From Gluconacetobacter azotocaptans (GTDB lineage: Bacteria > Pseudomonadota > Alphaproteobacteria > Acetobacterales > Acetobacteraceae): a stretch of DNA of 64,000 bases. The notes under the pieces are model-generated. The model saw nothing but the letters and a program-made list of their open reading frames with translations. It had not been told where the DNA came from and searched no databases. This document shows, piece after piece, positions 18,626-58,824 of the stretch (position 1 is its first letter; each line of letters opens with the position of its first letter). Made by a program: the position numbers and the translations under genes. Where the stretch lies: contig NZ_JABEQF010000002.1 in assembly GCF_014174355.1 (NCBI RefSeq), positions 1 to 64,000 of the forward strand, read 5' to 3'.

Positions 18626-18699
18626 TCGGCCGATGCCGTCGCGGCGTCCGGGCGCCGGGCGCATGCGATGTGGCCCAGACTTCTGATGAAAGTTCCAAA

Positions 18700-20656
<1,957 letters not shown>

Positions 20657-42720: not shown

Positions 42721-44082
42721 TTACGTCCTCGCCGGGCTTTTAATCCATGGGCACCCGGCTGCCGGCTCCTGCCCACGTTTTTGAAAAGAATTCTTTCCCG
42801 TTCCCGCCGAAACAGTTTTCGCAACCGGGGGGTCACGGGTCAGAATCTGTATGATGCACCAGGCCGTCAGATAAGCACTGCCACACACGACGAACAGGAT
42901 ATTGTAACCTGCGGTGATCCGGTCCAGATGTCGGTAATGGTCGAGCAGAACACCGACCCCAAGCGGAAACAGCATTCCGCCAATAGATCCCGCCATGCCG
43001 CCAATGCCCTGAACCGAGGCAATGATCTCCTTCGGAAAATGATCGGCCGGCAGGGAATAAATATTCACCGACCAACCCTGATGCGCCGCCGCTGCCAGAC
43101 TTAACAGCGCGATCATCAGCCACATGGCATCGACATGTGCGGAAAATGCCAGAGGAACCACCAGCGCTGCCATCAGCAGCATGACCGCCCGCCGGGCATG
43201 TGCCACCTTCCAGCCTTTGCTGACCAGAAAGGACGACAACCAGCCCCCGCCGACGCTGCCCACTGAGGTCGACAGATAAACGGCCATCAGCGGCAGCCCG
43301 AGATGCTGCAGATTGAGGTGGTACCGATCGGAAAAATAGGACGGCAGCCAGAACAGAATGAAGAACCAGATCGGGTCCGTCATGAACTTTCCGATCGCAA
43401 ACGCCCACGTCACCTTCATCTTGAGAAGATCGATCCAGCGCCCCTCAAACTCCGGCGTCGTGTCCGACTGCGTATCCTGGCGAATATAACGCAGTTCGTC
43501 AGCCGAAAGAGACGCCTTCTCTTCGGGAATGCGATAGCTGTAAAGCCAGACCGCCAGCCAGATGAACCCGGACAGGCCGGTGATGATGAACGTCGCCTGC
43601 CAGCCCCAGGTCACCGCCAGCCAGGGCACGGTCGCCGGCGCCATGATCGCCCCGATGCTGGTCCCGGCCGTTACGATGCCCACCGCCAGAGCCCGTTCCC
43701 GCGATGGAAACCATTCCGAAACGGCCTTCAGCGCCGAAGGAAAGTTGCCGGATTCACCAAACCCCAGAAGTCCGCGCATAGCCGCGAAGCTGACCGTCCC
43801 GCTCACGAAGGCATGCCCAATCGACGCGATGCTCCACACGGTCATGCATACGGCATAGCCGAGACGCGTCCCGACCTTGTCAATCAGCTTGCCAAAGGAA
43901 ACGAACCCGACCACGTAACAGGCCTGAAAGACAATCACCAGGTAGCTGTAATCCCTTTCGGTCCAGCTGAATTTTGCTTCCAGAAGCGGCTTCAGAAGGC
44001 TGAGAACCTGACGATCCACATAGTTGATGGTCGTGGCGGCAAAAAGAAGACTGCAGATAAGCCAGCGTTGCTTTGCAACCAT
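42721..44082 (-). CDS. MFS transporter, ExuT/ACS family
   Basis: 453-residue inner-membrane carrier. TM1 reads ATTINYVDRQVLSLLKPLLE, followed by LVIVFQACYVVGFVSFGKLIDKVGTR and the amphipathic RALAVGIVTAGTSIGAI, as in hexuronate carriers. Start at 44082 with GGAGGA; family members begin near this residue. Downstream of, and on the same strand as, the ergothioneine-type operon, but separated by 346 bp and a hairpin, so it is probably its own unit. Confidence 0.87.
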   Translation of the reverse strand: MVAKQRWLICSLLFAATTINYVDRQVLSLLKPLLEAKFSWTERDYSYLVIVFQACYVVGFVSFGKLIDKVGTRLGYAVCMTVWSIASIGHAFVSGTVSFAAMRGLLGFGESGNFPSALKAVSEWFPSRERALAVGIVTAGTSIGAIMAPATVPWLAVTWGWQATFIITGLSGFIWLAVWLYSYRIPEEKASLSADELRYIRQDTQSDTTPEFEGRWIDLLKMKVTWAFAIGKFMTDPIWFFILFWLPSYFSDRYHLNLQHLGLPLMAVYLSTSVGSVGGGWLSSFLVSKGWKVAHARRAVMLLMAALVVPLAFSAHVDAMWLMIALLSLAAAAHQGWSVNIYSLPADHFPKEIIASVQGIGGMAGSIGGMLFPLGVGVLLDHYRHLDRITAGYNILFVVCGSAYLTAWCIIQILTRDPPVAKTVSAGTGKNSFQKRGQEPAAGCPWIKSPART

Positions 44083-44428
44083 AACGTCCTCCGATTTTTT
44101 TTGTTTTCTGGAGACGCAACGACAATAAAAATGGACACAATCAGACATTCACCCCCATGTCACCTCGAAAGCGCGTCATGGGCATGGAAATATTTTTCAT
44201 TCTTTGTTTTTGAATATGAAACTTTTTGAAAGTGGTCTGCGTGTAGGACAGCCCTGCCGGGAAGGTTCAGAACGACGGCAGTCGGTTGCCGGACCGGCTA
44301 TCCTTCAATTCCCACAGCCGACCGATGGGGTGGCGGTCGGACGCGAAGACGAAGCGTGCCTGAATCGAGAGGTTCCGGCTGACATCCCCTGGACCCGCGC
44401 CGGATCCAGGGGAGCGCGATCGGGCCTT
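44083..44428. other. Intergenic stretch upstream of the ExuT-like gene
   Basis: 346 bp without a gene. The half near 44190-44230 is AT-rich and may hold the MFS promoter. The half near the hydratase stop carries the hairpin at 44386-44412. Confidence 0.5.
44386..44412 (-). terminator. Hairpin closing the ergothioneine-type operon
   Basis: CCCCTGGA (44386-44393) pairs with TCCAGGGG (44405-44412), 11-nt loop, 17 bp beyond the hydratase stop. No U-run on the minus strand. Confidence 0.45.
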
Positions 44429-46087
44429 CTATCCGCCGTGACCGGCAAGGTTGATATACGGGATGCGGGACCTCTCGATTTCCTCGACGGCTTCCCCATA
44501 GCCGGCGTCGGCATAACGCATCACGCCAAGGCTGGTATCGTTCGTCAACGTCAGGCGCAGGCGTTCATCCGCTTCCGACGAGCCGTCGGCGATCGTCGTG
44601 ACCCCGGCGCTGGTCATATAGCCGGCATAGCCGCCGCCGCCCGAGTGGATGGCGACCAGATCGGCCTGGGACGAACAGGCCAGCATGGCGTTGAGCAGCG
44701 GCCAGTCGGCGATGGCGTCCGACCCGTCCTTCAGATTCTCGGTCATGATGTTGGGGTGGGCCATGGCGCCGGCATCCAGATGGTCGCGGGTGAAGGCGAC
44801 GGGGCCGGACAGAATCCCCTCGCGCACCATCCGGTTGACGTCCAGCCCTACCTTCGTCCGATCGCCATGCCCCAGCCAGGCGATGCGGGCGGGCATGCCC
44901 TCGATCGGGATATGTTGGCGTGCCAGCGTGATCCAGTTCACGACCGATGGATTGTCGGCGAACGTCTTCAGCAGGTATTCGTCGATCCGGCGCAGGTCGC
45001 GTTCGTCGTTGGACAGCGCGATCCAGCGGAATGGGCCGATACCGCGCGCGAACAGCGGGCGCAGATAGGCCTCGGTGAAGATCGGGATATCGAACGCATG
45101 CTCGATACCGGCCGTCTTGGCCTGGGTACGGATCAGGTTGCCGTTGTCGAATACGACCGATCCAGCGGCCCGGAAATCGAGCATCGCCTGCACATGGCGC
45201 GCGATCGAGGCCAGCGAGAGCCGGGACAGGGCCTCGGGGTCGCTCTGGCGCAGCGCCTTCACCTCGCCCAGGGACAGGCCAGTCGGCACGTAGCCATAGA
45301 TCAGGTCATGGGCCGAGGTCTGGTCGGTGACGATGTCAGGGACGATACCCCGCGCCAGAATCTCGGGGAAGATGTCGGCCGCGTTGCCGCACAGGCCGAT
45401 GGAGCTGGCGTTGCCGGCCGCGCGTGCGGCCTCGACCAGGCGCATGGCATCGTCCAGTGACGTGGCGTGATGCTGCAGGTAGCCGCTGTCGATGCGCCGG
45501 GCGATGCGGGCTTCATCCACTTCGACGCACAGGATGATGGCGCCGGCCAGCCGCCCGGCCAGGGGCTGGGCGCCACCCATGCCGCCCAGCCCGGAAGTCA
45601 GGATCAGACGACCGGTCAGGTCCCCGTCGAAATGCCGTTCAGCGATGCGGCGGAAGATCTCGTACGTGCCCTGGATGACGCCTTGCGAGCCGATATACTG
45701 CCAGTCGCCCGCCGTCAGCCCGCCCCAGCAGATCAGCCCCTTCTTTTCCAGCCGATAGAATTCCTCGGCCTTCGCCCACTGTCCGACCATGTTGCAATTG
45801 GCCATGATGACGACGGGCGCGCGTTCGTGCGTCTTCACCACGCCGATCGGCTTGCCCGACTGGACGATCAGCGTCTCGTCATCACCCATGGTGGTCAGGG
45901 CGTGGACGATGGCGTCATGGGACGGCCAGTCCCGGGCGGCCTTGCCCAGCGCGGCATAGACCACGAGATTGGCGGGATCCTCGCCGACCGAGAGGACGTT
46001 TTCCAGCAGGCGCAGCAGCCCTTCCTGCCGCCAGCCGCGACATCGCAGGTTGCTGCCCGAGGTGACGCCGAACCGTTGCTTCGTCAT
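44429..46087 (-). CDS. Urocanase-family hydratase, probable thiourocanate hydratase
   Basis: 552 residues, urocanase length and order: YIGSQGVIQGTYE (131-143), SGLGGMGGAQPLA (165-177), TEAYLRPLFARGIGPFRWIALS and RDHLDAGAMAHPNIMTE. Residues I recall as strictly kept in true HutU differ: the active-site Cys of RICWLGxG is Ala403 (RIAWLGHG), and HHGGGVGMGY reads HSGGGGYAGY. With a MIO-less HutH homologue, DUF917, hydantoinase and carbamoyl hydrolase genes upstream, I infer it hydrates thiourocanate rather than urocanate. 3-bp gap to DUF917. A plain hutU remains the alternative. Confidence 0.75.
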   Translation of the reverse strand: MTKQRFGVTSGSNLRCRGWRQEGLLRLLENVLSVGEDPANLVVYAALGKAARDWPSHDAIVHALTTMGDDETLIVQSGKPIGVVKTHERAPVVIMANCNMVGQWAKAEEFYRLEKKGLICWGGLTAGDWQYIGSQGVIQGTYEIFRRIAERHFDGDLTGRLILTSGLGGMGGAQPLAGRLAGAIILCVEVDEARIARRIDSGYLQHHATSLDDAMRLVEAARAAGNASSIGLCGNAADIFPEILARGIVPDIVTDQTSAHDLIYGYVPTGLSLGEVKALRQSDPEALSRLSLASIARHVQAMLDFRAAGSVVFDNGNLIRTQAKTAGIEHAFDIPIFTEAYLRPLFARGIGPFRWIALSNDERDLRRIDEYLLKTFADNPSVVNWITLARQHIPIEGMPARIAWLGHGDRTKVGLDVNRMVREGILSGPVAFTRDHLDAGAMAHPNIMTENLKDGSDAIADWPLLNAMLACSSQADLVAIHSGGGGYAGYMTSAGVTTIADGSSEADERLRLTLTNDTSLGVMRYADAGYGEAVEEIERSRIPYINLAGHGG

Positions 46088-46090
46088 GGC

Positions 46091-47197
46091 TTAGCCTTTG
46101 TCGTTGATGCCGGCGAGGGCGTAGCTGGTCAGGTCAATGCCCAGGGCCCGTTCGACCGGCGGATAGACCGCCGGGTCGAGCACGCTGGAGGACAGCGGGA
46201 ATTTGGTCTTCTCCACGTGCAGGACAAGGATTTCCATGCCCTCGACGATCTCGCCGACGCTGAGCGGATGGCCTTCGGTCGACAGCGTCGTGATGATGTC
46301 CGGGAACGAGGCGATCCGCGTCCCGCCCGCATCATCCACGGCCATGTATTCGTTCATCACATGCAGGGTCACGGCCCTGTCGCCGGTATCGACGGTGATG
46401 GTGCCGACATCGAAGGCTTCCGGCGTGTAGACCACCGATTTCCGCGAGACCTTTCCTTGCGCGATGATGGCGCCGTCCAATTCGCGGGCGATGGTGTCGA
46501 TGACGGCGCTGCCCCCTTTCGGCCCGGCGGCGAGGACGGCCTCGCCCAGCGCAAGGGCCCGCGAGATCCCGCCCCAGGCGGCGTGCCGCTTGACGTAGGC
46601 GGCAGGCAGGGGATTGCGGCAGGAGGCGATGAACCCCCCGGACATGTCGGACGCGGTGCGCAGGATCGGCGAGACGCGCGCGGTCGCCCCCTTGGCGACG
46701 ACTTCGAGATAGGCGCCTTTCGCGCGGTTGCCGCCCACGACGGCCTGGATCATGGTCTCGGGCGAGCCCGCCATGCCGATCGAACCCATGTCGCCTGTGG
46801 GGTGCGCGCGCATGTCGCCGACCGCGTCGATCACCTTGGTGCCCAGGATGGCGCCCGGCAGCCAGGCATTCAGCGTGCTCGACTTGCCGTTCTGGCCGAT
46901 CATCAGCCCATGGATCGGGCGGCCCAGTTCCTTTTCCACCAGGCGGACGGCATTGACGTAATCGACGCCCAGCATCTGCCAGTCGGTCGTGCTGGCGGGC
47001 GCGCCGATCGCGGCGGCGGTGGCGATAATCGCGTCGTCGGCGATCTCCTCGGCGCCGACAAGCTCGGGCTGGCCCGCATTGACCGCCGCCGTGCCCAGCA
47101 TGCGGCCATGCTCGACCCATCCCCCGCCGCCGCAGGCGAAGATGGAGCCGCCCGCGATGGCGGCCTCGACATCCTTTTCAATCAGTATCCGGCCCAT
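46091..47197 (-). CDS. DUF917 / S-methyl-thiohydantoin desulfurase family protein
   Basis: 368 residues. Glycine-rich N-terminus GGSIFACGGGGWVEHGRML, then ASTTDWQMLGVDYVNAVRLVE and GDMGSIGMAGSPETMIQAVVGG, typical of DUF917 (PF06032). As I recall, Pfam now names this family after thiohydantoin desulfurisation. In this operon it would remove sulfur from 3-(5-oxo-2-thioxoimidazolidin-4-yl)propionate to give hydantoin-5-propionate (inference). 31 bp after the M20 gene and 3 bp before the hydratase. Confidence 0.78.
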   Translation of the reverse strand: MGRILIEKDVEAAIAGGSIFACGGGGWVEHGRMLGTAAVNAGQPELVGAEEIADDAIIATAAAIGAPASTTDWQMLGVDYVNAVRLVEKELGRPIHGLMIGQNGKSSTLNAWLPGAILGTKVIDAVGDMRAHPTGDMGSIGMAGSPETMIQAVVGGNRAKGAYLEVVAKGATARVSPILRTASDMSGGFIASCRNPLPAAYVKRHAAWGGISRALALGEAVLAAGPKGGSAVIDTIARELDGAIIAQGKVSRKSVVYTPEAFDVGTITVDTGDRAVTLHVMNEYMAVDDAGGTRIASFPDIITTLSTEGHPLSVGEIVEGMEILVLHVEKTKFPLSSSVLDPAVYPPVERALGIDLTSYALAGINDKG

Positions 47198-47228
47198 GAC
47201 TATTCTTCTTTCCTGTGCGGTTCGAGGT

Positions 47229-48482
47229 TCAGTCCGTGCGGTCGCGCATCAGCATCGCCTCGGCCAGGACCATGGTCCCGCGGGCGGCGTCTTCCGGCGC
47301 GCACCATTCTTCGGGGTCGTGGCTGCGCCCGTCGCGGCAGGGGACGAAGATCATCGCCATCGGCGCCAGACGCGCGACGAAGGCAGCGTCATGTCCCGCG
47401 CCGGAGACCATGTGGCGGGCGGTGAAACCCTGTTCCCGCGCCGCCACCGCGACCAGCGCGACCAATGCCGGGTCGCAGGGCGTCGGGTGCGTGTCGGACT
47501 GGATGGCGAAGCGGGCAAGCGCCGTATGGCTGGATCGGGCAGCATCCGCGCAGGCGGCGCGGATCGCAGCGATCAGGCCTTCGGCGACAGGGCGTTCGGA
47601 GACGCGGATATCGACGACCAGCCGGGCCGAACGCGGGACCACGTTGGAGGCACCGGGGGACAGGTCCAGCACGCCGCAGGTGGCGGTGACATGGCCCGCG
47701 CCGCACCGCGCGAGCGCGCTGGCCCGCTCGTGAACGAAACCGACGATCGCGGCGGCGGGAACGGCGGCGTCGCACCGGCGATCCATCGGCGTGGTGCCCG
47801 CATGGTCGGCGCGGCCCGAGAAGACGATTTCCAGCCGCGTCACGCCCGCGATGGCGTCCACCACGCCGATCTGCACCTGTTCCTGTTCCAGGACGATGCC
47901 CTGCTCGATATGCAGTTCGAAGAAGGCGCGGATATCGGCGCGGCGCGGGGTGTCCAGCCGGGCGGGCACGCCCCCCATACGGGCAATGGCATCGGCCAGA
48001 CTCTCGCCCCAGGGCGCGCGCAGGGCGCGATGGTCCGCCGACAGCGCGCCGGTCATGGCGCGGCTGCCGATGCAGGACAGGCCGAAATCGCTGGGTTCCT
48101 CGGCCAGGAAATCAACGATCTCCAGGTCATGGCGCAGGTCGATCCCCGCATCACGAAAGGCCCGCGCGGCCTCGAGCGCGGCAAGGACACCCAGGATGCC
48201 GTCGAAGCGGCCCCCATCGGGCACGGTATCGGAATGCGAACCGCTCATCAGCGTGCCAAGGCCCGGAGATGTGCCCACGCGGCGGCCGATCAGGTTGCCG
48301 GCGTCGTCGATGCGGGGCGCCAGTCCGGCCGCGTGAAAACGCGCGGCAAGCCAGTCCCGGCCTTCGAGAAAGCGGGGCGAGAAGGACCGCCGTGTATAGG
48401 GACGACCGGGATCGGTCAGGGCGGCCAGGGAATCGATATCGGCCTGAAGCCGCTCGGTCCGGATATGAGTCCCGACGCTCAT
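47229..48482 (-). CDS. M20 amidohydrolase, probable N-carbamoyl-L-glutamate hydrolase
   Basis: 417 residues of the Zn-dependent hydantoinase/carbamoylase (AllC/HyuC) type. Metal ligands visible: GSHSDTVPDGG, FDGILG, AEEPSDFG, ELHIEQG and GAGHDAAF, and the substrate arginine region GVLDLSPGASNVVP. It hydrolyses an N-carbamoyl amino acid to the free acid, CO2 and ammonia; in the proposed route it would release L-glutamate. ATGA overlap with the hydantoinase gene. Allantoate hydrolase is the main alternative, but no other allantoin genes are near. Confidence 0.82.
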   Translation of the reverse strand: MSVGTHIRTERLQADIDSLAALTDPGRPYTRRSFSPRFLEGRDWLAARFHAAGLAPRIDDAGNLIGRRVGTSPGLGTLMSGSHSDTVPDGGRFDGILGVLAALEAARAFRDAGIDLRHDLEIVDFLAEEPSDFGLSCIGSRAMTGALSADHRALRAPWGESLADAIARMGGVPARLDTPRRADIRAFFELHIEQGIVLEQEQVQIGVVDAIAGVTRLEIVFSGRADHAGTTPMDRRCDAAVPAAAIVGFVHERASALARCGAGHVTATCGVLDLSPGASNVVPRSARLVVDIRVSERPVAEGLIAAIRAACADAARSSHTALARFAIQSDTHPTPCDPALVALVAVAAREQGFTARHMVSGAGHDAAFVARLAPMAMIFVPCRDGRSHDPEEWCAPEDAARGTMVLAEAMLMRDRTD

Positions 48483-49843
48483 TGCCGGCCCGAGGGCCGG
48501 TCCGGGCAGATGAAGCGGCCTGTTCCAGGTTCGGCCGAAACGCTCTGTCCGTCGAAAATCTGTTGCCCCCGCAGCCAGGTCGCGGCGATGCGCCAGTCGA
48601 GCTCACGCCCGGCATAGGGGCTCCAGTCGGCGAAGGCGTGCCCGCTGGCGGTGGGATCGTACTGCCGGCTCTCCCGCCGGGCGATGGTGATGTCCGCGTC
48701 CCGTCCGGGAGAAAGACCCCCCTTGCCGGCGGTCAGGCGGAAGAGGCGGGCCGGGTTTTCCGCCAGCAGCCGGGCGGCATTGCTCAGGCACAGGTCGCGG
48801 CGCGACAGTTCGGTCAGCAGAAGGGGGTAAAGCACCTCCAGCCCCGGGGCACCGGACGCGTTCTTCAGCATCACCGGGTCGGACTTGCGGGACTGGGACC
48901 AGGACACGTGATCGGTCGAGACGATCGTGACGTTGCCGGCGGCCAGGTGCGCCCAGATCCCTTCGACCTCGGCCCGGGGACGGATCGGCGGGTTGATCTT
49001 GGCCCGGCCGCCCAGCCGCGCGACATCGTGTTCCTCGTCCAGCACCAGGTAATGGATGCAGGCCTCGACGGTCGTATCGAAGCCCTGGCGGCGGTAGGAT
49101 TCGCACAGGGCATAGCCGCGCGCGACCGAGCAATGGACGACATGGGCCGAACAGCCGGTTCCGGCCGCGGTCTCGTAGATCTGCGCCATGGCCAGCGTTT
49201 CGGCCAGGGCCGGACGCGACAGGCCATGAGCGCGCCAGTCGGTGATGCCCGACCGGATGACGGCGTTGATCCGCGCACGGACCAGCTCGTCATCCTCGTT
49301 ATGGACGCCCGCGATCAGTCCGGTGCGGGCGACGGCCTCGAAACAGGCGGCCAGCAGGTCGGGCGGAATGCGTGGGAAGCGGACGGGATCCGTGCCGAAG
49401 GTCGAGAATTTGAAGCCGCAGGCCCCGGCCCGGGCCATGTCGGGGATGTGAAGGGGACCGTCATCCGGCGCGATCGTGCCCCACAGCGCGAAATCGACGC
49501 GAGCCTGTTCGCCGGCCTCGCGCGCCTTCTGCCGCAGTTTGTCCGCCGTGCTGACGAGGAATCCGTCGTCATAGGGCATGTCGGCGATGGTGGTGACCCC
49601 GCCCGCGGCGGCGGCGCGCGTGCTCCAGAGGAAATCCTCCTGCCCCTTCTGCGAGCGGGAATGCACCTGCGCGTCGATGGCGCCGGGCAGGATCAGCGCG
49701 TCACCGTGATCCTCGACGCGGCGGGCGGCGGGGGCGGTTCCCTGGCCCAGGCGGCTGATGCGGCCGTCATCGACCGCGACCCAGCCCTCCTCCAGCACCG
49801 CGCTGGTGGTGACGACGCGTCCCTGGAACAGCAGGTCATGCAT
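48479..49843 (-). CDS. Cyclic amidohydrolase, probable hydantoin-5-propionate hydrolase
   Basis: 454 residues of the hydantoinase/allantoinase/dihydroorotase family. DAQVHSRS (QxH in place of the common HxH, as in some dihydroorotase relatives), the carboxylated-lysine region GFKFSTFG, GVHNEDDEL, AHVVHCSVARG and the late aspartate STDHVSWS. It opens a cyclic ureide. In this operon it would turn hydantoin-5-propionate into N-carbamoylglutamate. ATG at 49843 with AGGAGAG, overlapping the lyase gene by 8 bp. Confidence 0.82.
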   Translation of the reverse strand: MHDLLFQGRVVTTSAVLEEGWVAVDDGRISRLGQGTAPAARRVEDHGDALILPGAIDAQVHSRSQKGQEDFLWSTRAAAAGGVTTIADMPYDDGFLVSTADKLRQKAREAGEQARVDFALWGTIAPDDGPLHIPDMARAGACGFKFSTFGTDPVRFPRIPPDLLAACFEAVARTGLIAGVHNEDDELVRARINAVIRSGITDWRAHGLSRPALAETLAMAQIYETAAGTGCSAHVVHCSVARGYALCESYRRQGFDTTVEACIHYLVLDEEHDVARLGGRAKINPPIRPRAEVEGIWAHLAAGNVTIVSTDHVSWSQSRKSDPVMLKNASGAPGLEVLYPLLLTELSRRDLCLSNAARLLAENPARLFRLTAGKGGLSPGRDADITIARRESRQYDPTASGHAFADWSPYAGRELDWRIAATWLRGQQIFDGQSVSAEPGTGRFICPDRPSGRQ

Positions 49844-51374
49844 GGGCGCTCTCCTGAAACGATGGCGGCGGGGGAAAACGGAATTCGGCCGGCGGGTCGG
49901 CGGTGAAACGGGCGGCGAAGCGGTCCAGGACGGCTTCCGTCCGGTGCACGGCATCCGAAACCGCGCCGCTGTCATCCAGAAGCGGCACGTCGCATTGCAG
50001 TTCGGTCAGCAGGGTTCCGGGACCGTCCGTGGGCCTGGCGCCGGACAGATGAATGGCCTGGCGGCCGGCCATGGCTTCCAGCGCGATCAGGGGCGAGAGC
50101 AACGTCGTCTGCAGGCCCAGCGCCCGGGCGACAGACGGCAGGTAGCTGGCTTCGTCCTCGAAACCGTTGGCGACGGGGATCTGGTAGAGCGAGGCCGGGG
50201 TGGATTCACGCAGGATGGCGGTCGTCAGGTCGGCGGCCAGCTTGGTGGCGGCGCCGAAGGCGACCTGCCGCCCGGGATCGAGGGTCAGGTTGCGCGGCAG
50301 GCCCGACAGATCCTCGCGGCACAGGGCGAGGATGCGGCCCAGCGCGCTGCGGGCGTAATGGCACAGCGCAATCACCAGCGCCTGGGCGTCCACGGCAAGG
50401 GCCAGCGGCAGCGAGGCGCCCGACGTCATCGCCCGCCCGTCCAGCAGGACCGGATTGTCATCCGCATGCGCCAGGCTGTGGGCGAGCGTGGCCTCGACAC
50501 GATCCAGCGCCACGACCAGCGCGCCCGCGATCTGCGGCATGCAGCGGAAACTCAGCGGATCCTGCAGATTGCGGCGCGGCGTCCAGTCGCCGGGGCGCGT
50601 CAGGCCCTGCAGGAAGCGGGCCACGCGGGATTCCGCCTCCATGCCGGTCTGGCGGGCGGTTTCCCACGGAATGCCGAAGGCGCCGAAGCCGGCGGCGCCC
50701 AGGACGAACACATGCAGCAGCAGCGGCAGGCGGGCGCGCAGGTCGGCCGTCACCAGCGCCACCCCCGCGACACCCAGCGCGTTGCTGGACAGCACGGACA
50801 TGACGTCCTTGGGGCCGGGCACCATGGGCCGCAGCCCGGACCGGGCGAGAAGAGTGGCGGCGGGCAGCGGTGTGCCCCCGTCAGGACCGAAGGCCACGCC
50901 TTCGCCCAGCAACGACGCGCCGATATGGCTCATCAACCCGACATCCGCGCAGCCGATCGACCCGTATTCGGGGACGGCGGGCGTGATCCCGGCATTGAGC
51001 AGGGCCGCCAGCGATTCGGCCAGATGGATGCCGGCACCGGTATGGCCGGTCAGCAGCGTATTAAGACGAGTCGCCATGGCGGCGCGAACCAGTCGCCGCG
51101 GCAGCCAGGCACCTGTGCCAAGCAGGTGGGAGCGCAGCAGGCGCAGCGCGTATTTCGGCCGGTCGTCATCCGCGACACCGCTGTCCTTGAAGGCGCCGAC
51201 CATGCTGGTGGTGCCGTAAATGCCGTCTCCCCGGCCCAACGCCTCGGAAAGTGCGTGTTCGCCCGCACGCATCCGCGCGATGCCGGCCCGTCCCAGCATG
51301 ACCGGCGCGCCGTCGGCGATGGCGGTCAGACCGGTCAGCGGCAGTGTCGTGCCGGTAAGGGTGATGGGAGTCAC
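49836..51374 (-). CDS. HutH-like lyase without MIO triad, probable ergothionase
   Basis: 512 residues of the aromatic amino acid lyase fold, GTG start overlapping the previous stop (GTGA). True histidine ammonia-lyases form the MIO cofactor from Ala-Ser-Gly in GSVGASGDLA; this protein reads GSIGCADVGL (138-147), so MIO cannot form. YGVNTGFG is replaced by YGTTSMVG (Tyr53 kept), and the DPYSLR tyrosine is Leu (DPLSFRCMPQ). Ergothionase eliminates trimethylamine from ergothioneine by acid/base chemistry and not by the MIO mechanism, which fits. Histidine ammonia-lyase is therefore an unlikely function. Confidence 0.75.
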   Translation of the reverse strand: MTPITLTGTTLPLTGLTAIADGAPVMLGRAGIARMRAGEHALSEALGRGDGIYGTTSMVGAFKDSGVADDDRPKYALRLLRSHLLGTGAWLPRRLVRAAMATRLNTLLTGHTGAGIHLAESLAALLNAGITPAVPEYGSIGCADVGLMSHIGASLLGEGVAFGPDGGTPLPAATLLARSGLRPMVPGPKDVMSVLSSNALGVAGVALVTADLRARLPLLLHVFVLGAAGFGAFGIPWETARQTGMEAESRVARFLQGLTRPGDWTPRRNLQDPLSFRCMPQIAGALVVALDRVEATLAHSLAHADDNPVLLDGRAMTSGASLPLALAVDAQALVIALCHYARSALGRILALCREDLSGLPRNLTLDPGRQVAFGAATKLAADLTTAILRESTPASLYQIPVANGFEDEASYLPSVARALGLQTTLLSPLIALEAMAGRQAIHLSGARPTDGPGTLLTELQCDVPLLDDSGAVSDAVHRTEAVLDRFAARFTADPPAEFRFPPPPSFQESAHA

Positions 51375-52738
51375 GACAGCGTTCCGCCCCTGGTTGCTGG
51401 CGCCAGTGTTTCATCCCCGGGCATCCGTACCGATATGCTTTCTGGTGCAGGCGATATAGATTTTTCTGCACGCGACAGCGCATGGCCATGACGGAACGGG
51501 GGCGACAGCAATGCCGCCAGGGCGGGAAGGGCTGCCAGCGCCACATACAGCGCGGCGCTGGGCACGCCATGCCAGGCGGTTCCGAGGCTGGCGAGCAGCG
51601 CCGGGGCGAAACCACCGAAGACCGACACGGCGGCGTTGTACGAAAGGGCAATGCCCGTCGCCCGGACCGCGGCGGGAAACAGGCCGGCGATGCCGAGGGG
51701 CGCCGCACCGACGAACAGGGCCACCAGGCCGCACAGGCCTGCCGCGACCGCGATCATGGCGGCTGTGCCGGGATCGGATTTCAGCACGCCGAGGATCGGC
51801 CCGGGCAGGACGATCAGCAGCAGGGTCGCGGCGATGAGCAGACGCCGCACGCCGATCCGGTCCGCCACGGCGCCCGCCGTCAACGAGCCGGCGACGAGGG
51901 CGATGTTGCCGGCAAGAGAGGCGACATAACTGGCATGGACGGTGACGCCGCTGAAGCGCTGGGCATAGAGCGGCAGGTAGATGACCAGCGCGTAGGGCGC
52001 CGCCCCCCACAGCAGGGACAATCCCAGCGCCGCGGCGAGGCTGCCCCGATGATGGCGGGCCAGGGTGCGCAGGATAGGGGGGCGGGCGGCAGCGGGCGGC
52101 TTCGGCGCCGCGTCGTTGCGGCGCAGAACGATGCCGAGCGGGATGATGGCCAGGCCGATGGCGAACGGCACCCGCCAGCCCCAGTGCGCCAGTTGCGCAT
52201 CGGTCAGCAGGGCGGTCAGGCTGGCCGCGACGGCCGCGCCGAGCATATTGGACAGCCCCATGGTCGCCTGAAGGAACGAGGCGGCGAAACCATGGCGCCC
52301 ACGGCCGGCACGTTCGACCAGGAAGGCTGCGGCCCCCCCGATCTCGCCGCCCGCCGAGATCCCCTGCAGCAGCCTTGCGAGGCACAGGACGAGAATGGAG
52401 ACGCGACCCGCCACGGCGTAGGGCGGGTCGAACAGGATCAGGGCGGTGCCGGCCCCCATCAGCAGGCAGGTCAGCATCAGCGCGGTGCCGCGCCCCCGCC
52501 GGTCGGCGAACTGCCCCAGAAGCAGGGCGCCGACGGGCCGGGCGACGGCGCCCAGGGCGAAGACCAGCAGGCTCTGGGCCAACTGCGACAGAGGGTCGCC
52601 CGGCGGCAGAAGCGCGCGGGCGATATAGGGCGCGAACAGGGCGTAGACCGAAAAATCGTACCATTCGAGCAGATTGCCGATACAGGCGGCAGCCACCTGC
52701 GTCTTTCCGGTCCGCTCCCCGGGCGCGCGCGATGTCAT
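51371..52738 (-). CDS. MHS-family MFS transporter
   Basis: 455 residues. TM1 signature ACIGNLLEWYDFSVYALF, loop GQFADRRGRG and LARLLQGISAGGEIGGAA mark the metabolite:H+ symporter family, which includes the betaine carrier ProP. It is coupled to the lyase gene (GTGA overlap), so it is the prime candidate for carrying ergothioneine, itself a betaine, across the inner membrane (inference). Confidence 0.87.
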   Translation of the reverse strand: MTSRAPGERTGKTQVAAACIGNLLEWYDFSVYALFAPYIARALLPPGDPLSQLAQSLLVFALGAVARPVGALLLGQFADRRGRGTALMLTCLLMGAGTALILFDPPYAVAGRVSILVLCLARLLQGISAGGEIGGAAAFLVERAGRGRHGFAASFLQATMGLSNMLGAAVAASLTALLTDAQLAHWGWRVPFAIGLAIIPLGIVLRRNDAAPKPPAAARPPILRTLARHHRGSLAAALGLSLLWGAAPYALVIYLPLYAQRFSGVTVHASYVASLAGNIALVAGSLTAGAVADRIGVRRLLIAATLLLIVLPGPILGVLKSDPGTAAMIAVAAGLCGLVALFVGAAPLGIAGLFPAAVRATGIALSYNAAVSVFGGFAPALLASLGTAWHGVPSAALYVALAALPALAALLSPPFRHGHALSRAEKSISPAPESISVRMPGDETLAPATRGGTLS

Positions 52739-52751
52739 GACAGCCCGACGA

Positions 52752-55103
52752 TCAGAAATCGGCGCTGACGGTGCCGAAGAACTGACGCGGCGCGCCCATC
52801 AGGAAGTAATTGAAGTCATTATTGACGAAATTGTTCCCCAGTTCGTTCGTCGTGGCGATGTAGGTCTTGTTGGTCAGATTGTAGATGTTGAAGCTGGCGG
52901 TCAGTCCCTTGAACGGGCCAACCTGCCCGAAATGATACCGCATGCCGAAATTCATCAGGAAATAGCCGGGCACATGCAGATCGTTGGTATAGGTCAGCTC
53001 GCGATGGGACAGGTAGGTCCCGTCCACATGCGTGTCGAAATTGCCGATACGGTAGGTGATGTTCCCCTTGTACATGAATTGCGGATAATTCGGCACCAGC
53101 TTGCCACGCGTCGGCTGGATGCCCGTCGCGGTCGCGACATTCTGGTCGTAGGTCGAATGGGCGTAGGAGAACGAGTTGTAGATCGACAATCCGTTGACCG
53201 GGCGCAGCGTCACGCTGGCTTCGGCGCCATTGGTCGTCACCCCGCCGACATTCTGCACGGCGGTGATCGGGTTGATGCCGGCACTGCTGGTGATGAGCTG
53301 CAGGCGGTTCGAGAAATTGATGCGGTACAGCGACGCCAGCGCGCTGATGAACGGCGAGGTGTAGCGATAGCCCCCTTCATAAACCCAGTCCGTCTCCGGC
53401 TTCAGCGTGTCCCGGGTCGCCTGGAAGTTGGCTTGCGAGGCCGTCCAGGGCGTGGCCGACACATTGGTGCCGTACCCGTCCAGCGGGAACGAACGCATAT
53501 TGTGCGACACATCGAAGAACAGTTCATGATGCGGCAGGAAGCGCCAGTTGGCCGACACCTGCGGCAGGAACGCGTTCGAGGCCTCCAGGTGCCCCTGCGC
53601 GATCCCCGTACCGTTGATGGCAAGATCCTGCGTCGGAACAGAGTTGCCCGAATTCACGATCATGGATTTGAACCCCGCGTTGACGGTCAGGTTCTTCGTG
53701 ATTTTGTAGGTGTCCTGAAGGTGGAAGACGAATGTCCTGGACGAGAAGGCTTCCTGCCAGGCCGTCGCGAAGACCTTGTCCGCCGGGAAGCCTGTCGTGG
53801 GGTTGCCCAGCGTGCCCTGGCCCAGCAGCGGCGCTTCCGAGAAATAGCGCCCTTCGGTGAAATTGCCGTATTCGTACCAGACGCCGGCATTGATCGCATG
53901 ACGCGCGACCTTCCAGGTCAGGGCGGTCTGGAACCCGCCGCGCGCGATGCCGGGTGTCTGTATGCGCTGGGACAGCGGCGCGCCGTTGGGCGAGGGCATG
54001 TACGGCGTCGTCCAGGTGCTGTAGCCGTTGTCGCCGTGGGCGTAGAGCGTCGTCTTCCAGTTCAGGGACGAAGTCAGGTTTTCATCGAGTGTAAGCCCGC
54101 CCAGATAATCGACGCGGTTGGCGGTCCCGGCATAATAGGCGGCGTCGAACGGATCGTTCGTCTTCTGCAGGGCCGCCGGATAGGTCCCCCCCGCCGCGTT
54201 GTAGGCCGCCGTGTAATCCGGATAGTAGTTCGCCAGGTTGGGACCGACCGTATGCAGCCAGTTGCTGGTCATGTCCTGGTAGTCGAATTGCTGGATCGAA
54301 CTCCAGTCAAAGAAGAGTTTCAGGGACGAGCCCCGCGCCAGCGGCTGGACGAACTTGGCGTTCACCTGGTCCGAATGGTCATAGCCGCCGCCTTTCCACA
54401 GATTGCCGTTCAGGCGGGCATAGGCGACGTAGAAGCGCGTGCCGCTGGCATTCAGATCGCCGCTTTCGAAACGTGCGTAGGTGCGCATGGTCGAATTGCT
54501 GCCGAAGGTCTGGCCGACCGTCCCGCCGCGCACATGGGACGGATCGAGGGACCGGATCTGGATGGCGCCGCCGAGATTGCTGGTCGAGGCAACGTCGATC
54601 GCGCCCGCGCCCTGCGAGACATCGACCCCGCCGACATCGTCCGAGATGATGGCGCGGGTGACGGCCAGGCCGTTGTAGTTGTTGAACTGCTGGTCGCCGA
54701 GGGGAATGTCGTCAAGTGTAAAGCCAAGCTGGGACTGGCTGAAACCACGCATGAACATCTGGCTGGAATATTCATAGGCGCCAAAGGGGTCGGCGGACTG
54801 ATAGAACACGCCCGGAAGCTGGCTCAGAACCCTCAGCGGCGAGGTTCCCGGGACACTCTGCTGCATCATGGCGCGGGTGATGCCGGTCATCTGGCGGGTG
54901 GAGCCATGGCCGAAGACGGTGATCGCCTCATTGCCCTCGCCCGACGCCCGGGGGCGCGGCTTCGTCGTCTTCGCCGCCGCCGGGGCGGGAGACGCGGCGG
55001 TGGAGCCGGCGGCGGCGGGGCTGGCAGAAGCGGCATGAAGCTGGGGCGCGACCGCGAGGCTGCCGAACATGGTCGAAAGCGCGAGAATCCGTCGTGATGT
55101 CAT
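52752..55103 (-). CDS. TonB-dependent outer-membrane receptor
   Basis: 783 residues. Signal peptide MTSRRILALSTMFGSLAVAPQLHA, an Ala/Pro-rich linker, a TonB-box-like NEAITVFG, then the plug domain (VLSQLPGVFYQSADPFGAYEY, IPLGDQQFNNYNGLAVTRAI) and a barrel full of aromatic-ended strands finishing in TVSADF with terminal Phe. AAGGAAT before the ATG. Between two carrier genes of the same operon, it should bring the operon's substrate through the outer membrane; a TonB route for ergothioneine is not known to me. Confidence 0.9.
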   Translation of the reverse strand: MTSRRILALSTMFGSLAVAPQLHAASASPAAAGSTAASPAPAAAKTTKPRPRASGEGNEAITVFGHGSTRQMTGITRAMMQQSVPGTSPLRVLSQLPGVFYQSADPFGAYEYSSQMFMRGFSQSQLGFTLDDIPLGDQQFNNYNGLAVTRAIISDDVGGVDVSQGAGAIDVASTSNLGGAIQIRSLDPSHVRGGTVGQTFGSNSTMRTYARFESGDLNASGTRFYVAYARLNGNLWKGGGYDHSDQVNAKFVQPLARGSSLKLFFDWSSIQQFDYQDMTSNWLHTVGPNLANYYPDYTAAYNAAGGTYPAALQKTNDPFDAAYYAGTANRVDYLGGLTLDENLTSSLNWKTTLYAHGDNGYSTWTTPYMPSPNGAPLSQRIQTPGIARGGFQTALTWKVARHAINAGVWYEYGNFTEGRYFSEAPLLGQGTLGNPTTGFPADKVFATAWQEAFSSRTFVFHLQDTYKITKNLTVNAGFKSMIVNSGNSVPTQDLAINGTGIAQGHLEASNAFLPQVSANWRFLPHHELFFDVSHNMRSFPLDGYGTNVSATPWTASQANFQATRDTLKPETDWVYEGGYRYTSPFISALASLYRINFSNRLQLITSSAGINPITAVQNVGGVTTNGAEASVTLRPVNGLSIYNSFSYAHSTYDQNVATATGIQPTRGKLVPNYPQFMYKGNITYRIGNFDTHVDGTYLSHRELTYTNDLHVPGYFLMNFGMRYHFGQVGPFKGLTASFNIYNLTNKTYIATTNELGNNFVNNDFNYFLMGAPRQFFGTVSADF

Positions 55104-55107
55104 CAGA

Positions 55108-56460
55108 TTATTCCTTGTTGCGTCCCGTGCCGCCGGGGGCTGGGCGCGGGGAATGGTCGATTGGGGTGGCGGCATGCGGGGCAGCGTCTGCGGGACGCAG
55201 GCCGAACTGATAAATCGCGACGGTGCCGAGCCCGATGGCGCCGGCGACGAGCATGGACGGCGTAAAGCTGCCGAACCGGTCGGCCAGCAGCCCGGTGACC
55301 GCGGGGGCCAGCGCGCCGCCGAACGAGCCACCGGTATTCTGGATCGCCTGCAGGGTGGCGACGCGGTGTTCGGCCGCGATCACTGTGCCGAGCATCCAGC
55401 CGCAGCTCATGGCCAGCCCGCCGGCGAACAGGGCGACGGCCATGAAGACGATCGTGACGGCCAACCCCGTATGCAGCGTGGTCAGGGCCGTCGCGACGGC
55501 GGCCACCAGCATGGCGAGGACGAGCGGCGTGCGGCAGGCATTGAGCGGGGTCACGCCCCGGGCGGCAAGGTGGTCCGCGACGAAGCCGCCCAGCACGCTT
55601 CCCGCGAAGCCGCAGAACTGGGGCAGGGCCGAGAGCAGACCGGCCTGATCGATCGTCAGATGGCGCGACGCCTGAAGCCAGGCGGGCATCCATGTGGCAT
55701 AGAGCCAGGTCAGATAGATCACCCCGGCGAATCCCGCCGTGACGATCCAGCTTGAACGTTGGCGAAGCAGATAGCCGAGATCTTGGCGCAGGGCCCGCGC
55801 GGTAACCGCCGCGACCGGCGCATCATATCCGGGCAGCGCGTCCCGGGCTTCGGCGGCAAGGGGCAGGTCCGTGGGGTCGCGGTAGAAACGGATCCAGACG
55901 AACGCCAGCACCAGACTGGCCGCGCCGATCGCGACCGACATGCCCCGCCAGCCCCACAGCATCATGATCGAGAGCAGCAGCGGCGGGGCAATGGCCGGGC
56001 CGAGCGCGGCCGAGCCGTTGAACAGGCCGATGGGCCGCCCCCGCTCCCGGGGCCGGAACCACCGCACGAGCGCGCGCGTGCCGGAGAGGAAGAGAGGCGT
56101 TTCGCCCAGGCCCAGCCCGATGCGCGCCAGGAACAGGCCCGGGATGCCATGCACCAGGCCGAAGGCCATCTGCGCGCAGGACCAGACGATCAGTCCTGCC
56201 CCCAGCAGGTGACGGCTGTCGAACCTGTCGGCCAGGAGGCCCATCGGGATCTGGCCGGCCAGATAGGCCCAGGCGAAGACCGACAGCAGCATGCCCATCT
56301 GCGTGTAGGACATGTGCATGTCGGCCATGACCGCCGTGCTGCTGATGGAAAGGGCGGCGCGATCGATATAGCTGACGCAGCCCGCCGCTATGAGCAGCAG
56401 GACCGTGATCCGGCGCCGGCGGCGCAGCGCGGCGGAAAGACCAGACACAAGGATGCTCAT
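55108..56460 (-). CDS. MFS transporter, ACS family
   Basis: 450 residues. TM1 AGCVSYIDRAALSISSTAV, then LLSVFAWAYLAGQIPMGLLADRF and LARIGLGLGETPLFL, similar to the carrier at 6060. ATGA overlap with the LysR gene upstream; 4 bp before the TonB receptor gene. A second carrier in one operon suggests either a second substrate or export of a product such as an organic anion. Confidence 0.87.
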   Translation of the reverse strand: MSILVSGLSAALRRRRRITVLLLIAAGCVSYIDRAALSISSTAVMADMHMSYTQMGMLLSVFAWAYLAGQIPMGLLADRFDSRHLLGAGLIVWSCAQMAFGLVHGIPGLFLARIGLGLGETPLFLSGTRALVRWFRPRERGRPIGLFNGSAALGPAIAPPLLLSIMMLWGWRGMSVAIGAASLVLAFVWIRFYRDPTDLPLAAEARDALPGYDAPVAAVTARALRQDLGYLLRQRSSWIVTAGFAGVIYLTWLYATWMPAWLQASRHLTIDQAGLLSALPQFCGFAGSVLGGFVADHLAARGVTPLNACRTPLVLAMLVAAVATALTTLHTGLAVTIVFMAVALFAGGLAMSCGWMLGTVIAAEHRVATLQAIQNTGGSFGGALAPAVTGLLADRFGSFTPSMLVAGAIGLGTVAIYQFGLRPADAAPHAATPIDHSPRPAPGGTGRNKE

Positions 56461-57713
56461 GCGACGGACTTCCGCCCCACGGAGGCACTTTCGACCTGGA
56501 TTTCCGCCAGGCCGGCGCGCAGACGGTCGATGATGGCGAGATTGCGATGGTCCTCCTTCCAGATCAGCCGGGTCGTCATCCGGTAGCGATCCGGCAGCGG
56601 GACGGCATGGACGGCGTGGGACCGGAACGAACCGGCGGGCAGGATGGCACAGCACGTGCCGTCCTCGACCAGGCGCAGAATGAGGGACAGGGATTGCGTC
56701 TCGAAAATCGCGCTCGGGGCGATGCCTTCCTGATCGAGATAGCGGTCCGTAATCCGCCGCAGTCCGGTGCCCAGGGCGGGCACTGCCAGCAGGCACGAAG
56801 CAAGCACCATCTGCGGCGTCTGGTTTGCCCGCAGGCCATGCGAACGGCTGGAAACGAGGAAGATCGCGGATTTTTCCAGTTCGGCGCAATCGAGCCCGAG
56901 CGGAATGTCGATCAGGTCCGAAAGGCCGGCATCGAACCGCCCGTCCAGAAGCCCTTCCACCATCTGCGGCGCGGCGATGGTCGAAATCGTCAGCGGCGGC
57001 TGGTAACGGCGATGGCGCCAGAGCCGGACGAGATTGGCCAGCAGGACGGTGAGCGAACTGTCGCTGCTGGTCGGCATCATCGAGGCGAGTTTCAGGGTCC
57101 TGAATTCGCGGAAATAGCTGAAATTCTCATCACGCATGATCTGCCGGTAGGTCCGGTCCACCTGCTGGCAGCCCTGGCGCAGGGACTCGGCCTCGGCGGT
57201 CAGCGTGACGCCATGGGGACTGCGCAGGAAGAGCGTCCGGCCGAGAATCGTCTCCAGCTTGCGGATCTGGCGCGAGAGCGTGGGCTGGGTAAGGGAAAGA
57301 CGCTGCGCAGCGGCGGCGATCCGCCCGGTTTCGCAGACGGACAGGAAATAGCCGATCATCCGCAGCGTCAGGCCCGAATCCAGCAGCGCGCGCAGCCGAC
57401 GGGTCGGCAGCGGATGTGGCGTAGCCTCTTCCGGCGGGACGATGCTGGCCCGGCTGTCCTCCCCGATCAGCGCGAGGCTCCAGCCGAGGAGATGCAGGGC
57501 GGAACGGTAGAGACTCTCTCCATGCGCGGTCGTGATGGTCTTGCTGCCCCGACGAAGCGCCGAGCGTGACAGCAGCGAGGTCGCCATCGCCTGCTCCAGG
57601 GCGGAGACGCTGTGATTGAGGGTGGACGCGCTGACGCCAAGCGCCGAGGCCGCCGACGCCGCAGAGCCCTCGTTGATAAGGCTCGTAAAATAGATCAGAG
57701 CCGGAAGTTCCAT
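56457..57713 (-). CDS. LysR-type regulator with two N-terminal HTH domains
   Basis: 418 residues, about 110 longer than usual. The first LysR-like HTH is at residues 4-58 (FTSLINEGSAASAASALGVS, then TLNHSVSALEQ). The second is at 117-175 (FLSVCETGRIAAAAQRLSLT, then QPTLSRQIRKLE, FLRSPHGVTLT). The effector domain follows (LKLASMMPTSSDSSLTVLLA onwards). As first gene, overlapping the MFS start, it is probably made with the operon. It may contact DNA with a doubled recognition surface (inference). Confidence 0.82.
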   Translation of the reverse strand: MELPALIYFTSLINEGSAASAASALGVSASTLNHSVSALEQAMATSLLSRSALRRGSKTITTAHGESLYRSALHLLGWSLALIGEDSRASIVPPEEATPHPLPTRRLRALLDSGLTLRMIGYFLSVCETGRIAAAAQRLSLTQPTLSRQIRKLETILGRTLFLRSPHGVTLTAEAESLRQGCQQVDRTYRQIMRDENFSYFREFRTLKLASMMPTSSDSSLTVLLANLVRLWRHRRYQPPLTISTIAAPQMVEGLLDGRFDAGLSDLIDIPLGLDCAELEKSAIFLVSSRSHGLRANQTPQMVLASCLLAVPALGTGLRRITDRYLDQEGIAPSAIFETQSLSLILRLVEDGTCCAILPAGSFRSHAVHAVPLPDRYRMTTRLIWKEDHRNLAIIDRLRAGLAEIQVESASVGRKSVA

Positions 57714-58006
57714 TTCTACGGGGCCTCGGGAGAATACGGGAGAGCGATACGGTGCGATTCAGGGAAGAGGTGCGTGGAAATGTCTAAATGACCATCATGG
57801 TAGTTGATAACAAAAATAGCGACCTTCGATCGTATCGAAGCATCATCGCAATGATGCCGCAATTTTAAATATCCATCAGGCATACCCTATGCACAATAAA
57901 GCATAGCGCACGGGAGGGCAGTCCGTTTCCGGCCTGTGGCGGAACAGGGGCGACCGGCCACCGGTACCATCAGGAAGAAGTCGATCGGGACTTGAATTTT
58001 TCTCGC
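57714..58006 (-). promoter_or_regulatory. Promoter region of the ergothioneine-type operon
   Basis: 293 bp, partly AT-rich. A perfect 11-bp palindrome ACCAT-C-ATGGT lies at 57791-57801, 78 bp before the LysR start, and an inverted repeat CTATGC-N8-GCATAG lies near 57887-57906. Either could be the regulator's site. Confidence 0.4.
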
Positions 58007-58495
58007 TCAGGCTTTCCGGGCGAAGGCCTGGAGTGCCGGCTGCGCCCGTCTGGCGTTCGGGAAAACCATCGGGCCTCGACCGGTCAGCACACGAACGGCT
58101 TCCAGGATTTCGACCGCCTGCCAAGACAGCGGAACGGCATGGGGTTTGCGCATCTTCACGCGCTCTTTCGGGATGCGCCAGATCGCACCGTCCAGTTCGT
58201 GCCACGACATTCCGTGAACCTCTCCCGGCCGTACGGCCGTCAGTGCGAGGAAGCGCATTGCCAGAGCGGTTATCGGGTGTGACGGGATGTCCTCGGCGGC
58301 CCTCAGCATGTCGCGCAGGGCGTCGATCTCGATTATTGCCGGCCGCCGACCCTTCTGCAGTGGGGCGAGCGCGCCCTTAATCACTTCGGCCGGATCGGAT
58401 GTCGCCAAGCCGCTGGCGATCGCGTGGATAAATATTGCCGACAGGCGTTTCCTTGCCACCGAAGCGGTAATTCAAGCGCCATAGGCGCGAGCCAT
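58007..58495 (-). pseudogene. Broken tyrosine recombinase (P4-type integrase) remnant
   Basis: A 150-codon open frame (GTG at 58459) carries the middle of a P4-type integrase: LSAIFIHAIASGLATSDPAE and FLALTAVRPGEVHGMSW with the first catalytic Arg. It stops before the HxxR and Tyr regions. Just upstream in another frame, WRLNYRFGGKE (58481-58449) is a piece of the N-terminal domain. About 130 codons between them are missing. Inactive. It lies 240 bp from the 3' end of tRNA-Ser, the usual address of such elements. Confidence 0.75.
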
Positions 58496-58733: not shown

Positions 58734-58824
58734 TGGCGGAGAGAGTGGGATTCGAACCCACGGTACGCTATTAACGTACACACGCTTTCCAAGCGTGCGC
58801 CTTAAGCCGCTCGGCCATCTCTCC
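58734..58824 (-). tRNA. tRNA-Ser (GGA)
   Basis: 91 nt including the encoded CCA. Acceptor stem GGAGAGA/TCTCTCC, anticodon loop TTGGAAA within CGCTTGGAAAGCG, a long variable arm (GTACGTTAATAGCGTAC) and T-loop GGTTCGAATCC. The GGA anticodon reads UCC/UCU. Class II shape confirms serine. Likely attachment site of the integrase remnant next to its 3' end. Confidence 0.97.

Follow-up and report, generated by a model that had tools for sequence, protein, structure and literature searches.

What does the nine-gene operon at positions 44429 to 57713 of the Gluconacetobacter azotocaptans contig NZ_JABEQF010000002.1 degrade? The stretch of DNA analysed, called the window here, comprises its first 64,000 nucleotides, and the operon encodes members of the HutH and HutU superfamilies, which carry out steps 1 and 2 of histidine utilisation (Hut). 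The original prediction, made from the letters of the window, had assigned the operon to the breakdown of ergothioneine to glutamate. Ergothioneine is a sulfur antioxidant of fungi and some (actinobacterial) bacteria that animals acquire through their diet; when bacteria degrade it, trimethylamine and sulfide are set free. A published five-enzyme reconstitution is said to use the same five activities as those proposed for the operon (ergothionase, thiourocanate hydratase, desulfurase, hydantoin-5-propionate hydrolase, and N-carbamoylglutamate hydrolase). Our sequence comparisons support the ergothioneine-to-glutamate interpretation, chiefly through four enzymes that exceed equivalog cut-offs and through the trees of the lyase and the hydratase. 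We put at about 0.88 the probability that the operon lets Gluconacetobacter take up outside ergothioneine and degrade it to glutamate.

The operon consists of nine open frames on the minus strand, all at the coordinates originally predicted. From 57713 down to 44429, they encode a LysR-type regulator, a major facilitator superfamily (MFS) carrier (referred to as the second MFS), a TonB receptor, an MHS-type MFS carrier, a lyase, an amidohydrolase, an M20 hydrolase, a DUF917 protein, and a HutU homologue. The gene families named beforehand agreed with the Pfam and NCBIfam assignments (Lyase_aromatic, Urocanase, S-Me-THD, Amidohydro_1, Peptidase_M20, two MFS, TonB receptor, and LysR; S-Me-THD proteins are named DUF917 in public records). 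The nine genes had also been described as tightly overlapping. Their packing is indeed tight, but only four of the eight junctions overlap, by 4 nucleotides each at LysR/MFS, MHS/lyase, and amidohydrolase/M20 and by 8 nucleotides at lyase/amidohydrolase; the other four are gaps of 3, 4, 13, and 31 nucleotides. Such short overlaps and gaps are as expected of one transcript. Five other genomes of the genus, and one from another genus, have this gene order as well. Related loci were then taken from a search with a desulfurase alignment, as the best 80 of 431 confirmed stretches, which represent close relatives of the query rather than a random selection. All 12 loci of acetic acid bacteria among these 80 (Gluconacetobacter, Acetobacter, Gluconobacter, and Komagataeibacter) showed the nine genes of the window operon in unchanged order; four of the 12 are from the same genomes as in the genus comparison, and the fetched stretch starts inside the LysR gene. 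Since the order recurs across genomes and genera, the arrangement is not due to chance. As a single compact unit, the operon would allow its uptake, breakdown, and control functions to be tested together.

Four of the five enzymes passed NCBI equivalog cut-offs for ergothioneine steps. The HutU homologue (44429..46087) scored 995 bits with the thiourocanate hydratase model NF058530 (step 2; cut-off, 930), and the DUF917/S-Me-THD protein (46091..47197) scored 591 bits with the thiohydantoin desulfurase model NF058529 (step 3; cut-off, 440). The amidohydrolase (48479..49843) matched ErtD, hydantoin-5-propionate amidohydrolase, at 753.8 bits (step 4; NF058538; cut-off, 600), and the M20 hydrolase (47229..48482) matched ErtE, N-carbamyl-L-glutamate amidohydrolase, at 554 bits (step 5; NF058540; cut-off, 520). 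ErtE was also over the cut-offs of two general models, NF009531, "Zn-dependent hydrolase" (530.7 versus 486), and TIGR01879 (335.7 versus 204). The first metal-site motif of ErtD is DxQxH in 76 of 81 rows, with 2 rows gapped and 3 not displayed, and the Burkholderiales type is included. Classical hydantoinases have DxHxH at this motif, and the metal use of ErtD may be different from theirs, as judged by these residues.

NCBIfam also has S-methyl-ergothioneine versions of the hydratase and the desulfurase, which belong to the same superfamilies as the window enzymes. Both window enzymes were below these cut-offs (hydratase, NF058531, 751.7 versus 880; desulfurase, NF058532, 276.7 versus 450) and above those of the plain ergothioneine models, so that S-methyl-ergothioneine is disfavoured as the substrate. 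For the same reason, we consider it unlikely that the true substrate is any relative of ergothioneine, such as the S-methyl form or ergothioneine sulfonate, processed by the same kind of enzymes. The existence of the S-methyl models favours such a relative, as do the position of the window lyase in an alphaproteobacterial clade apart from the Treponema denticola enzyme (see below) and a bacterial ergothioneine sulfonate route in print, which is named in the title of a reference that PMC13405746 cites for Agrobacterium radiobacter.

A point that weighs against ergothioneine and would fit histidine is that the hydratase also exceeded the cut-off of the hutU model TIGR01228 (695.8 versus 375). 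A tree was therefore built from a chosen subset of 43 rows, including two from the PDB. In it, the structure 7ned grouped with the window protein and with 26 further hydratases linked to the pathway, and 15 HutU proteins, including that of the same genome and 2fkn, were placed opposite; both branches had a support of 100 in the Shimodaira-Hasegawa-like approximate likelihood ratio test (SH-aLRT). This tree and those of the lyase and the receptor below are quick trees, each with long-branch warnings. The PDB search gave the same preference, with 817.7 bits for 7ned versus 601.5 for HutU 2fkn. The PDB label of 7ned is "Urocanate hydratase" only; we take this protein to be a thiourocanate hydratase. 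The original prediction had called the window protein a diverged HutU homologue and had proposed a phylogenetic comparison of both the hydratase and the lyase with true histidine enzymes; the hydratase groups away from HutU.

According to passages of one paper (PMC13405746), ergothionase works without the 4-methylideneimidazole-5-one (MIO) group, is definitively known from few bacteria, and is expressed in Burkholderia with ergothioneine as the sole nitrogen source; a thiourocanate desulfhydrase is mentioned there for gut bacteria. In the window, step 1 is assigned to an aromatic amino acid lyase with a GTG start (49836..51374), a predicted ergothionase that would convert ergothioneine to thiourocanate and trimethylamine, as suggested by its PDB match, fold, tree position, and residues. 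It had been described as a MIO-less HutH homologue, and it has GSIGCADVGLMSH at the site where HutH of the same genome has GSVGASGDLAPLAH; Ala-Ser-Gly is the MIO-forming motif. With the hutH model, it scored 186.5 bits, far below the cut-off of 539. No ergothionase model turned up in NCBIfam, and the lyases of Trinickia and Pseudomonas pathway loci likewise match HutH-type models below the cut-off only. The best PDB sequence match was the T. denticola ergothionase 6s7j (175.4 bits), and the next was a probable histidine lyase (141.6 bits). An AlphaFold model of the lyase, with a predicted local distance difference test (pLDDT) value of 88, also had 6s7j as its best fold match (template modelling [TM] score, 0.89/0.92; 28% identity; E, 1e-30).

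We then compared the MIO site and its surroundings among related lyases. The pattern G-S-x-G-[CET]-[AG]-D replaced the MIO motif in 73 of 76 rows, comprising 75 matches in the fetched loci and the window, with four genomes present twice; the MIO motif was found in 2 rows (HutH of the same genome and L076), and the region was missing in 1. A tree of 62 of 98 rows was made after removal of many Rhizobiales and duplicate Gluconacetobacter loci, the pieces from L105 having been excluded earlier. In this tree, a branch with an SH-aLRT of 98 split 40 MIO-less lyases, including the T. denticola ergothionase and three from outside the pathway, from 22 other rows, 19 with the MIO motif and 3 with neither pattern. 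The window lyase was on the side of the ergothionase, apart from MIO-containing HutH. Four residues, K63, N198, D305, and K378, were present in all 72 MIO-less rows, while the MIO rows (n = 19) had A, T, S/T, and V at these positions, with K63, N198, and C378 as single exceptions. These counts cover 91 of the 98 rows (L183, L184, L177, L157, L178, L188, and L087 were excluded); four Gluconacetobacter genomes are counted twice (L045-L048 and L054-L057), as is HutH of the same genome (L001 and L052).

As originally claimed, none of the nine genes was HutI, HutG, or HutF according to Pfam and NCBIfam, and the desulfurase would be without a task in a Hut operon, or a duplicate of one, that degrades histidine via urocanate. 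Moreover, the genome has a MIO-containing HutH (C2:355775), HutU (C1:308356), and HutF (C1:312262; 585 bits versus a cut-off of 413) outside the operon, and the latter two genes (L053) enclose one for a GntR/UTRA regulator and one for an amidohydrolase whose HutI signature is below the cut-off. The membership of the lyase and the hydratase in the HutH and HutU superfamilies, together with the hutU score of the latter, speaks for histidine. However, the model cut-offs, the trees placing both enzymes in other clades than true HutH and HutU, and the separate histidine genes led us to reject this reading, which we regard as very improbable.

Several observations weigh against the ergothioneine interpretation. 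Histidine lyases were close behind 6s7j in the fold search (E values no better than 2e-27; TM normalised by query length, at most 0.88 versus 0.89), and the identity to 6s7j is just 28%. The two proteins share their fold, the absence of the MIO motif, and K63, N198, D305, and K378 (the last three being T. denticola 196, 308, and 383, as counted from the alignment), but they differ at C142, G146, S321, and N362 of the window lyase, which are E, T, F, and F in 6s7j. The window lyase belongs to a group of 62 rows; the other 10 MIO-less rows are those of T. denticola, Burkholderiales, and others. Nearly fixed sites split these two groups, with C142 in 60 of 62 versus E142 in 10 of 10, S321 versus F, and N362 versus F, and the tree places the window lyase among alphaproteobacterial sequences, in a clade separate from the T. 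denticola enzyme. Because of these nearly fixed differences, another betaine is a conceivable substrate for step 1 alone, as far as residues tell. In addition, no lyase was found in the fetched stretch of 15 of the 80 pathway loci, some of these stretches being short. All 15 have the desulfurase and the hydratase (L066, L067, L068, L071, L074, L075, L079, L083, L088, L093, L096, L098, L114, L123, and L131); either their lyase is elsewhere in the genome, or thiourocanate comes from another enzyme. We know of no characterised member of the window lyase group in the literature outside subscription, and the clade provides a second, sequence-distant group for the study of MIO-independent lyases. 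We conclude with high confidence that the enzymes of the operon are a further member of the known pathway, with a distinct lyase clade.

Other lyase genes were noted during this comparison. A single pathway locus of Comamonas testosteroni, L099, encodes two distinct MIO-less lyases (14251-16071 and 18669-20366). In L157, at 3790-5604 (G275), a MIO-less lyase (GSLGEADLVPLAH) accompanies an amidohydrolase gene near a TonB receptor and a second-MFS-like MFS. This genome, which belongs to the same family, had no match to the thiourocanate hydratase model, and the enzyme is possibly a lyase for another betaine. A further MIO-less family (G[ST]LGEGDLAV) occurs in L189 (11858-13765; G009) and L190 (9910-11754; G013), two Gluconacetobacter genomes without an over-cut-off desulfurase, where a TonB receptor gene (45 to 46% identity to the window receptor) is directly upstream on the same strand. 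In Rhizobium L105, the lyase and ErtD genes are split, by decay or sequencing error.

The distribution of the pathway was examined next. Among the other 68 of the best 80 loci, which by title are mostly from Rhizobiales and also from Burkholderiales, Pseudomonas, and others, the desulfurase was found in 68, the hydratase in 66, ErtE in 64, ErtD in 61, the lyase in 53, a LysR-family gene in 49, and an MHS carrier in 10. Neither a TonB receptor nor a second-MFS-like MFS was found in the fetched stretch of any of these 68. Thus, the window operon resembles the known five-step ergothioneine catabolism in encoding all five activities, most of whose gene homologues are also clustered in the Rhizobiales, Burkholderiales, and Pseudomonas loci. 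It differs in that LysR, the TonB receptor, and the second MFS are joined to the enzymes in a single uninterrupted unit, an arrangement found only in acetic acid bacteria among the best 80 loci, and in having a lyase from a distinct clade. Because of the receptor, the second carrier, the tandem helix-turn-helix (HTH) regulator described below, and this lyase clade, the whole unit is a variant of the known ergothioneine catabolic operon. The desulfurase was over the cut-off in 7 of 40 relatives, namely, 6 of 14 genomes of the genus (that of the window included) and one of another family; of the 299 family genomes searched, 4 had a hydratase over the cut-off. Desulfurase relatives were found in 21 of 72,556 plasmid records, 10 of them at 60 to 80% identity and mostly alphaproteobacterial. 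A record titled Bacillus subtilis SK6B4 (L072) had a gene layout and identities nearly those of Pseudochrobactrum L070 and is probably a contamination or mislabelling. Acetic acid bacteria live on fruit, in vinegar, and at fungus-rich sites, and the operon suggests that they can probably consume ergothioneine. No such operon was found by title in the literature, and ergothioneine was absent from the acetic-acid-bacteria matches listed, in a search that lay outside most subscription papers.

From family membership, gene order, conservation, and co-occurrence, we infer substrates, transport direction, and inducer as follows. Ergothioneine would cross the inner membrane, most likely via the MHS carrier, and the MIO-less lyase would cleave it to thiourocanate and trimethylamine. 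The HutU homologue would hydrate thiourocanate to thiohydantoin propionate, from which the DUF917 enzyme would strip the sulfur as sulfide, leaving hydantoin-5-propionate to be opened by the amidohydrolase and glutamate to be freed by the M20 hydrolase. The order of these steps is that of the published pathway. EgtD had no match in the same genome (control genomes were likewise without an over-cut-off EgtD), which suggests that ergothioneine would come from outside. A search of this genome for trimethylamine mono-oxygenase with PF00743 gave one weak match of 21.4 bits (23 with neighbours; cut-off, 22).

The MHS-type carrier (51371..52738; NCBIfam 2A0106/ProP-like, below the cut-off) followed the pathway closely. 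At an E value of 1e-60, its occurrence in the genus was confined to the 6 genomes with the pathway (0 of 8 others), two of which also carry a paralogue at 37 to 38% identity; together with LysR, it co-occurred with the pathway in 6 of 6 genomes and in none of the 8 pathway-free ones, one of which (G013) is a fragmented 87% assembly. In three of the 10 other pathway loci with an MHS homologue (L099, L106, and L115), the gene is directly beside the lyase, which makes the MHS carrier the best candidate and most likely the inner-membrane importer of ergothioneine.

The TonB-dependent outer-membrane receptor (52752..55103; Pfam Plug and TonB_dep_Rec over the cut-off) and the second MFS (55108..56460; Pfam MFS_1; D-galactonate/ACS-like subfamily, NCBIfam TIGR00893 below the cut-off) gave a different picture. 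The operon had been said to have its own TonB receptor. Its position within the operon stood, in 12 of 12 acetic-acid-bacteria pathway loci versus 0 of 68 others within the fetched stretch, but exclusivity did not. The receptor was present at at least 75% identity in 11 of 14 genomes of the genus, and 5 of the 8 pathway-free ones have an orthologue at 75 to 81%. A strong receptor match was obtained in 13 of the 299 genomes sampled from the family, and in 9 of these 13 no hydratase exceeded its cut-off. Relatives of the second MFS were likewise found near a TonB receptor in pathway-free loci, and 13 of 14 genomes of the genus have one at at least 36% identity. Furthermore, the operon-linked receptors were not one clade: forcing them together cost 96.8 log-likelihood units (approximately unbiased [AU] test, P = 3.3e-8) on a quick tree of 31 rows, from which the duplicates L054-L057 and matches of <400 bits or <600 amino acids were excluded. 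Neither gene is thus exclusive to the pathway, which weighs against a role in ergothioneine uptake, and a pathway-specific receptor was not supported.

We consider the chances about even that the receptor and the adjoining MFS serve another nutrient, as passengers or scavengers in the operon, and that ergothioneine enters by a porin and the MHS carrier. Besides the close orthologues without the pathway, the tree, and the absence of the receptor from the fetched stretches of the 68 other loci, this view is favoured by the surroundings of 11 pathway-free receptor loci, with a second-MFS-like MFS nearby in 9, a fatty-acid-desaturase-like gene in 7, a PhnD-like gene in 5, and both of the latter in 5. 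The receptor gene is also split in one of the 12 acetic-acid-bacteria loci. Against this view, the position of the receptor is constant in these 12 loci from four genera, more than is expected of a passenger. Import of ergothioneine by the receptor is a plausible role, judged by its position, although one that we hold to be somewhat less likely than not, and such uptake is a matter of inference because genomes lacking the pathway also carry close orthologues of the receptor. The receptor and the second MFS, a second uptake module common to other acetic-acid-bacteria loci, may have been an existing module taken into the operon, importing ergothioneine or an accompanying compound. More doubtful still is the full proposal that the receptor and its partner MFS provide energy-driven outer-membrane import of ergothioneine, or of ergothioneine with a metal, for fungal ergothioneine at low concentration and under control of the tandem-HTH LysR. 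To our knowledge, no energy-driven outer-membrane ergothioneine importer has been described before, and ergothioneine, if imported in this way, would be a new substrate for TonB receptors as far as we know; pathway-free receptor loci would then import the same antioxidant for keeping, or a related betaine. A literature search of titles and abstract openings, outside of which most subscription papers lay, gave nothing linking TonB-dependent receptors to ergothioneine uptake.

Some of the receptor loci deserve mention in their own right. A set of fatty-acid-desaturase-like, PhnD-like, TonB receptor, and MFS genes, with receptors closely orthologous to that of the operon, recurs in acetic acid bacteria (L139, L140, L141, L155, and L156); the desaturase-like and MFS genes are also present in L142 and L143. 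In Gluconobacter albidus L063, the TonB receptor and MHS genes are split, by decay or sequencing error.

The regulator (56457..57713) is a LysR-type protein of 418 amino acids whose N-terminal part contains two HTH domains in tandem (about residues 1 to 60 and 117 to 176; Pfam HTH_1 in two stretches), followed by an effector domain (LysR_substrate). An alignment of the window protein with 6 orthologues, three of them near-copies of one another, showed both HTH regions to be conserved, and a BLAST search of the two regions against each other gave no match. An AlphaFold model had two helical HTH units with a block pLDDT of mostly about 74 to 88 and an effector domain with mostly 26 to 48. At an E value of 1e-40, searches of the 14 genomes of the genus recovered LysR in exactly the 6 that have the pathway and in 0 of the 8 pathway-free ones. 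LysR probably activates the operon in response to ergothioneine or a pathway intermediate. One title-level search for tandem-HTH LysR proteins found nothing relevant.

Upstream of LysR, a CTATGC-N8-GCATAG dyad followed by a further TATGCC (57879..57906, minus strand) is a candidate operator, and conservation alone speaks for it. Five relatives retain most of the upstream block CTATGCTTTATTGTGCATAGGGTATGCC, in contrast to much of the flanking sequence, and an ATGCTTT..TGCA..ATGCC block was conserved in the window and five relatives (three of them near-copies) and weaker in L051; in this alignment, the L049 row is offset, as it starts about 22 codons upstream of the others. With one mismatch allowed, the dyad was expected 0.73 times in 64 kb and found once, as an exact copy, which is no rarer than chance. 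A near-free LysR-box pattern was uninformative (2190 matches versus a chance mean of 1916).

Finally, the DNA around the operon was inspected. A scan for a promoter and terminator after the last gene found none. A downstream MFS gene on the same strand (42721-44148) was rejected as a tenth member, since in the loci of six nine-gene relatives it matches only the second-MFS-type carrier, at 25 to 29%. A tRNA search in the stretches of 18 relatives, most of which extend little or not at all beyond LysR, found none. The 4.4 kb downstream of the window operon is unlike the downstream DNA of the 12 other acetic-acid-bacteria loci. On the other side, an integrase C-terminal remnant (58007..58459, minus strand; PF00589, 33.8 bits) and a tRNA-Ser (GGA) found by ARAGORN (58734..58824, minus strand), possibly an old island attachment site, adjoin the operon, and these neighbours suggest that the window copy belongs to an old island. 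In the relative G088, a recombinase gene is located after the operon.

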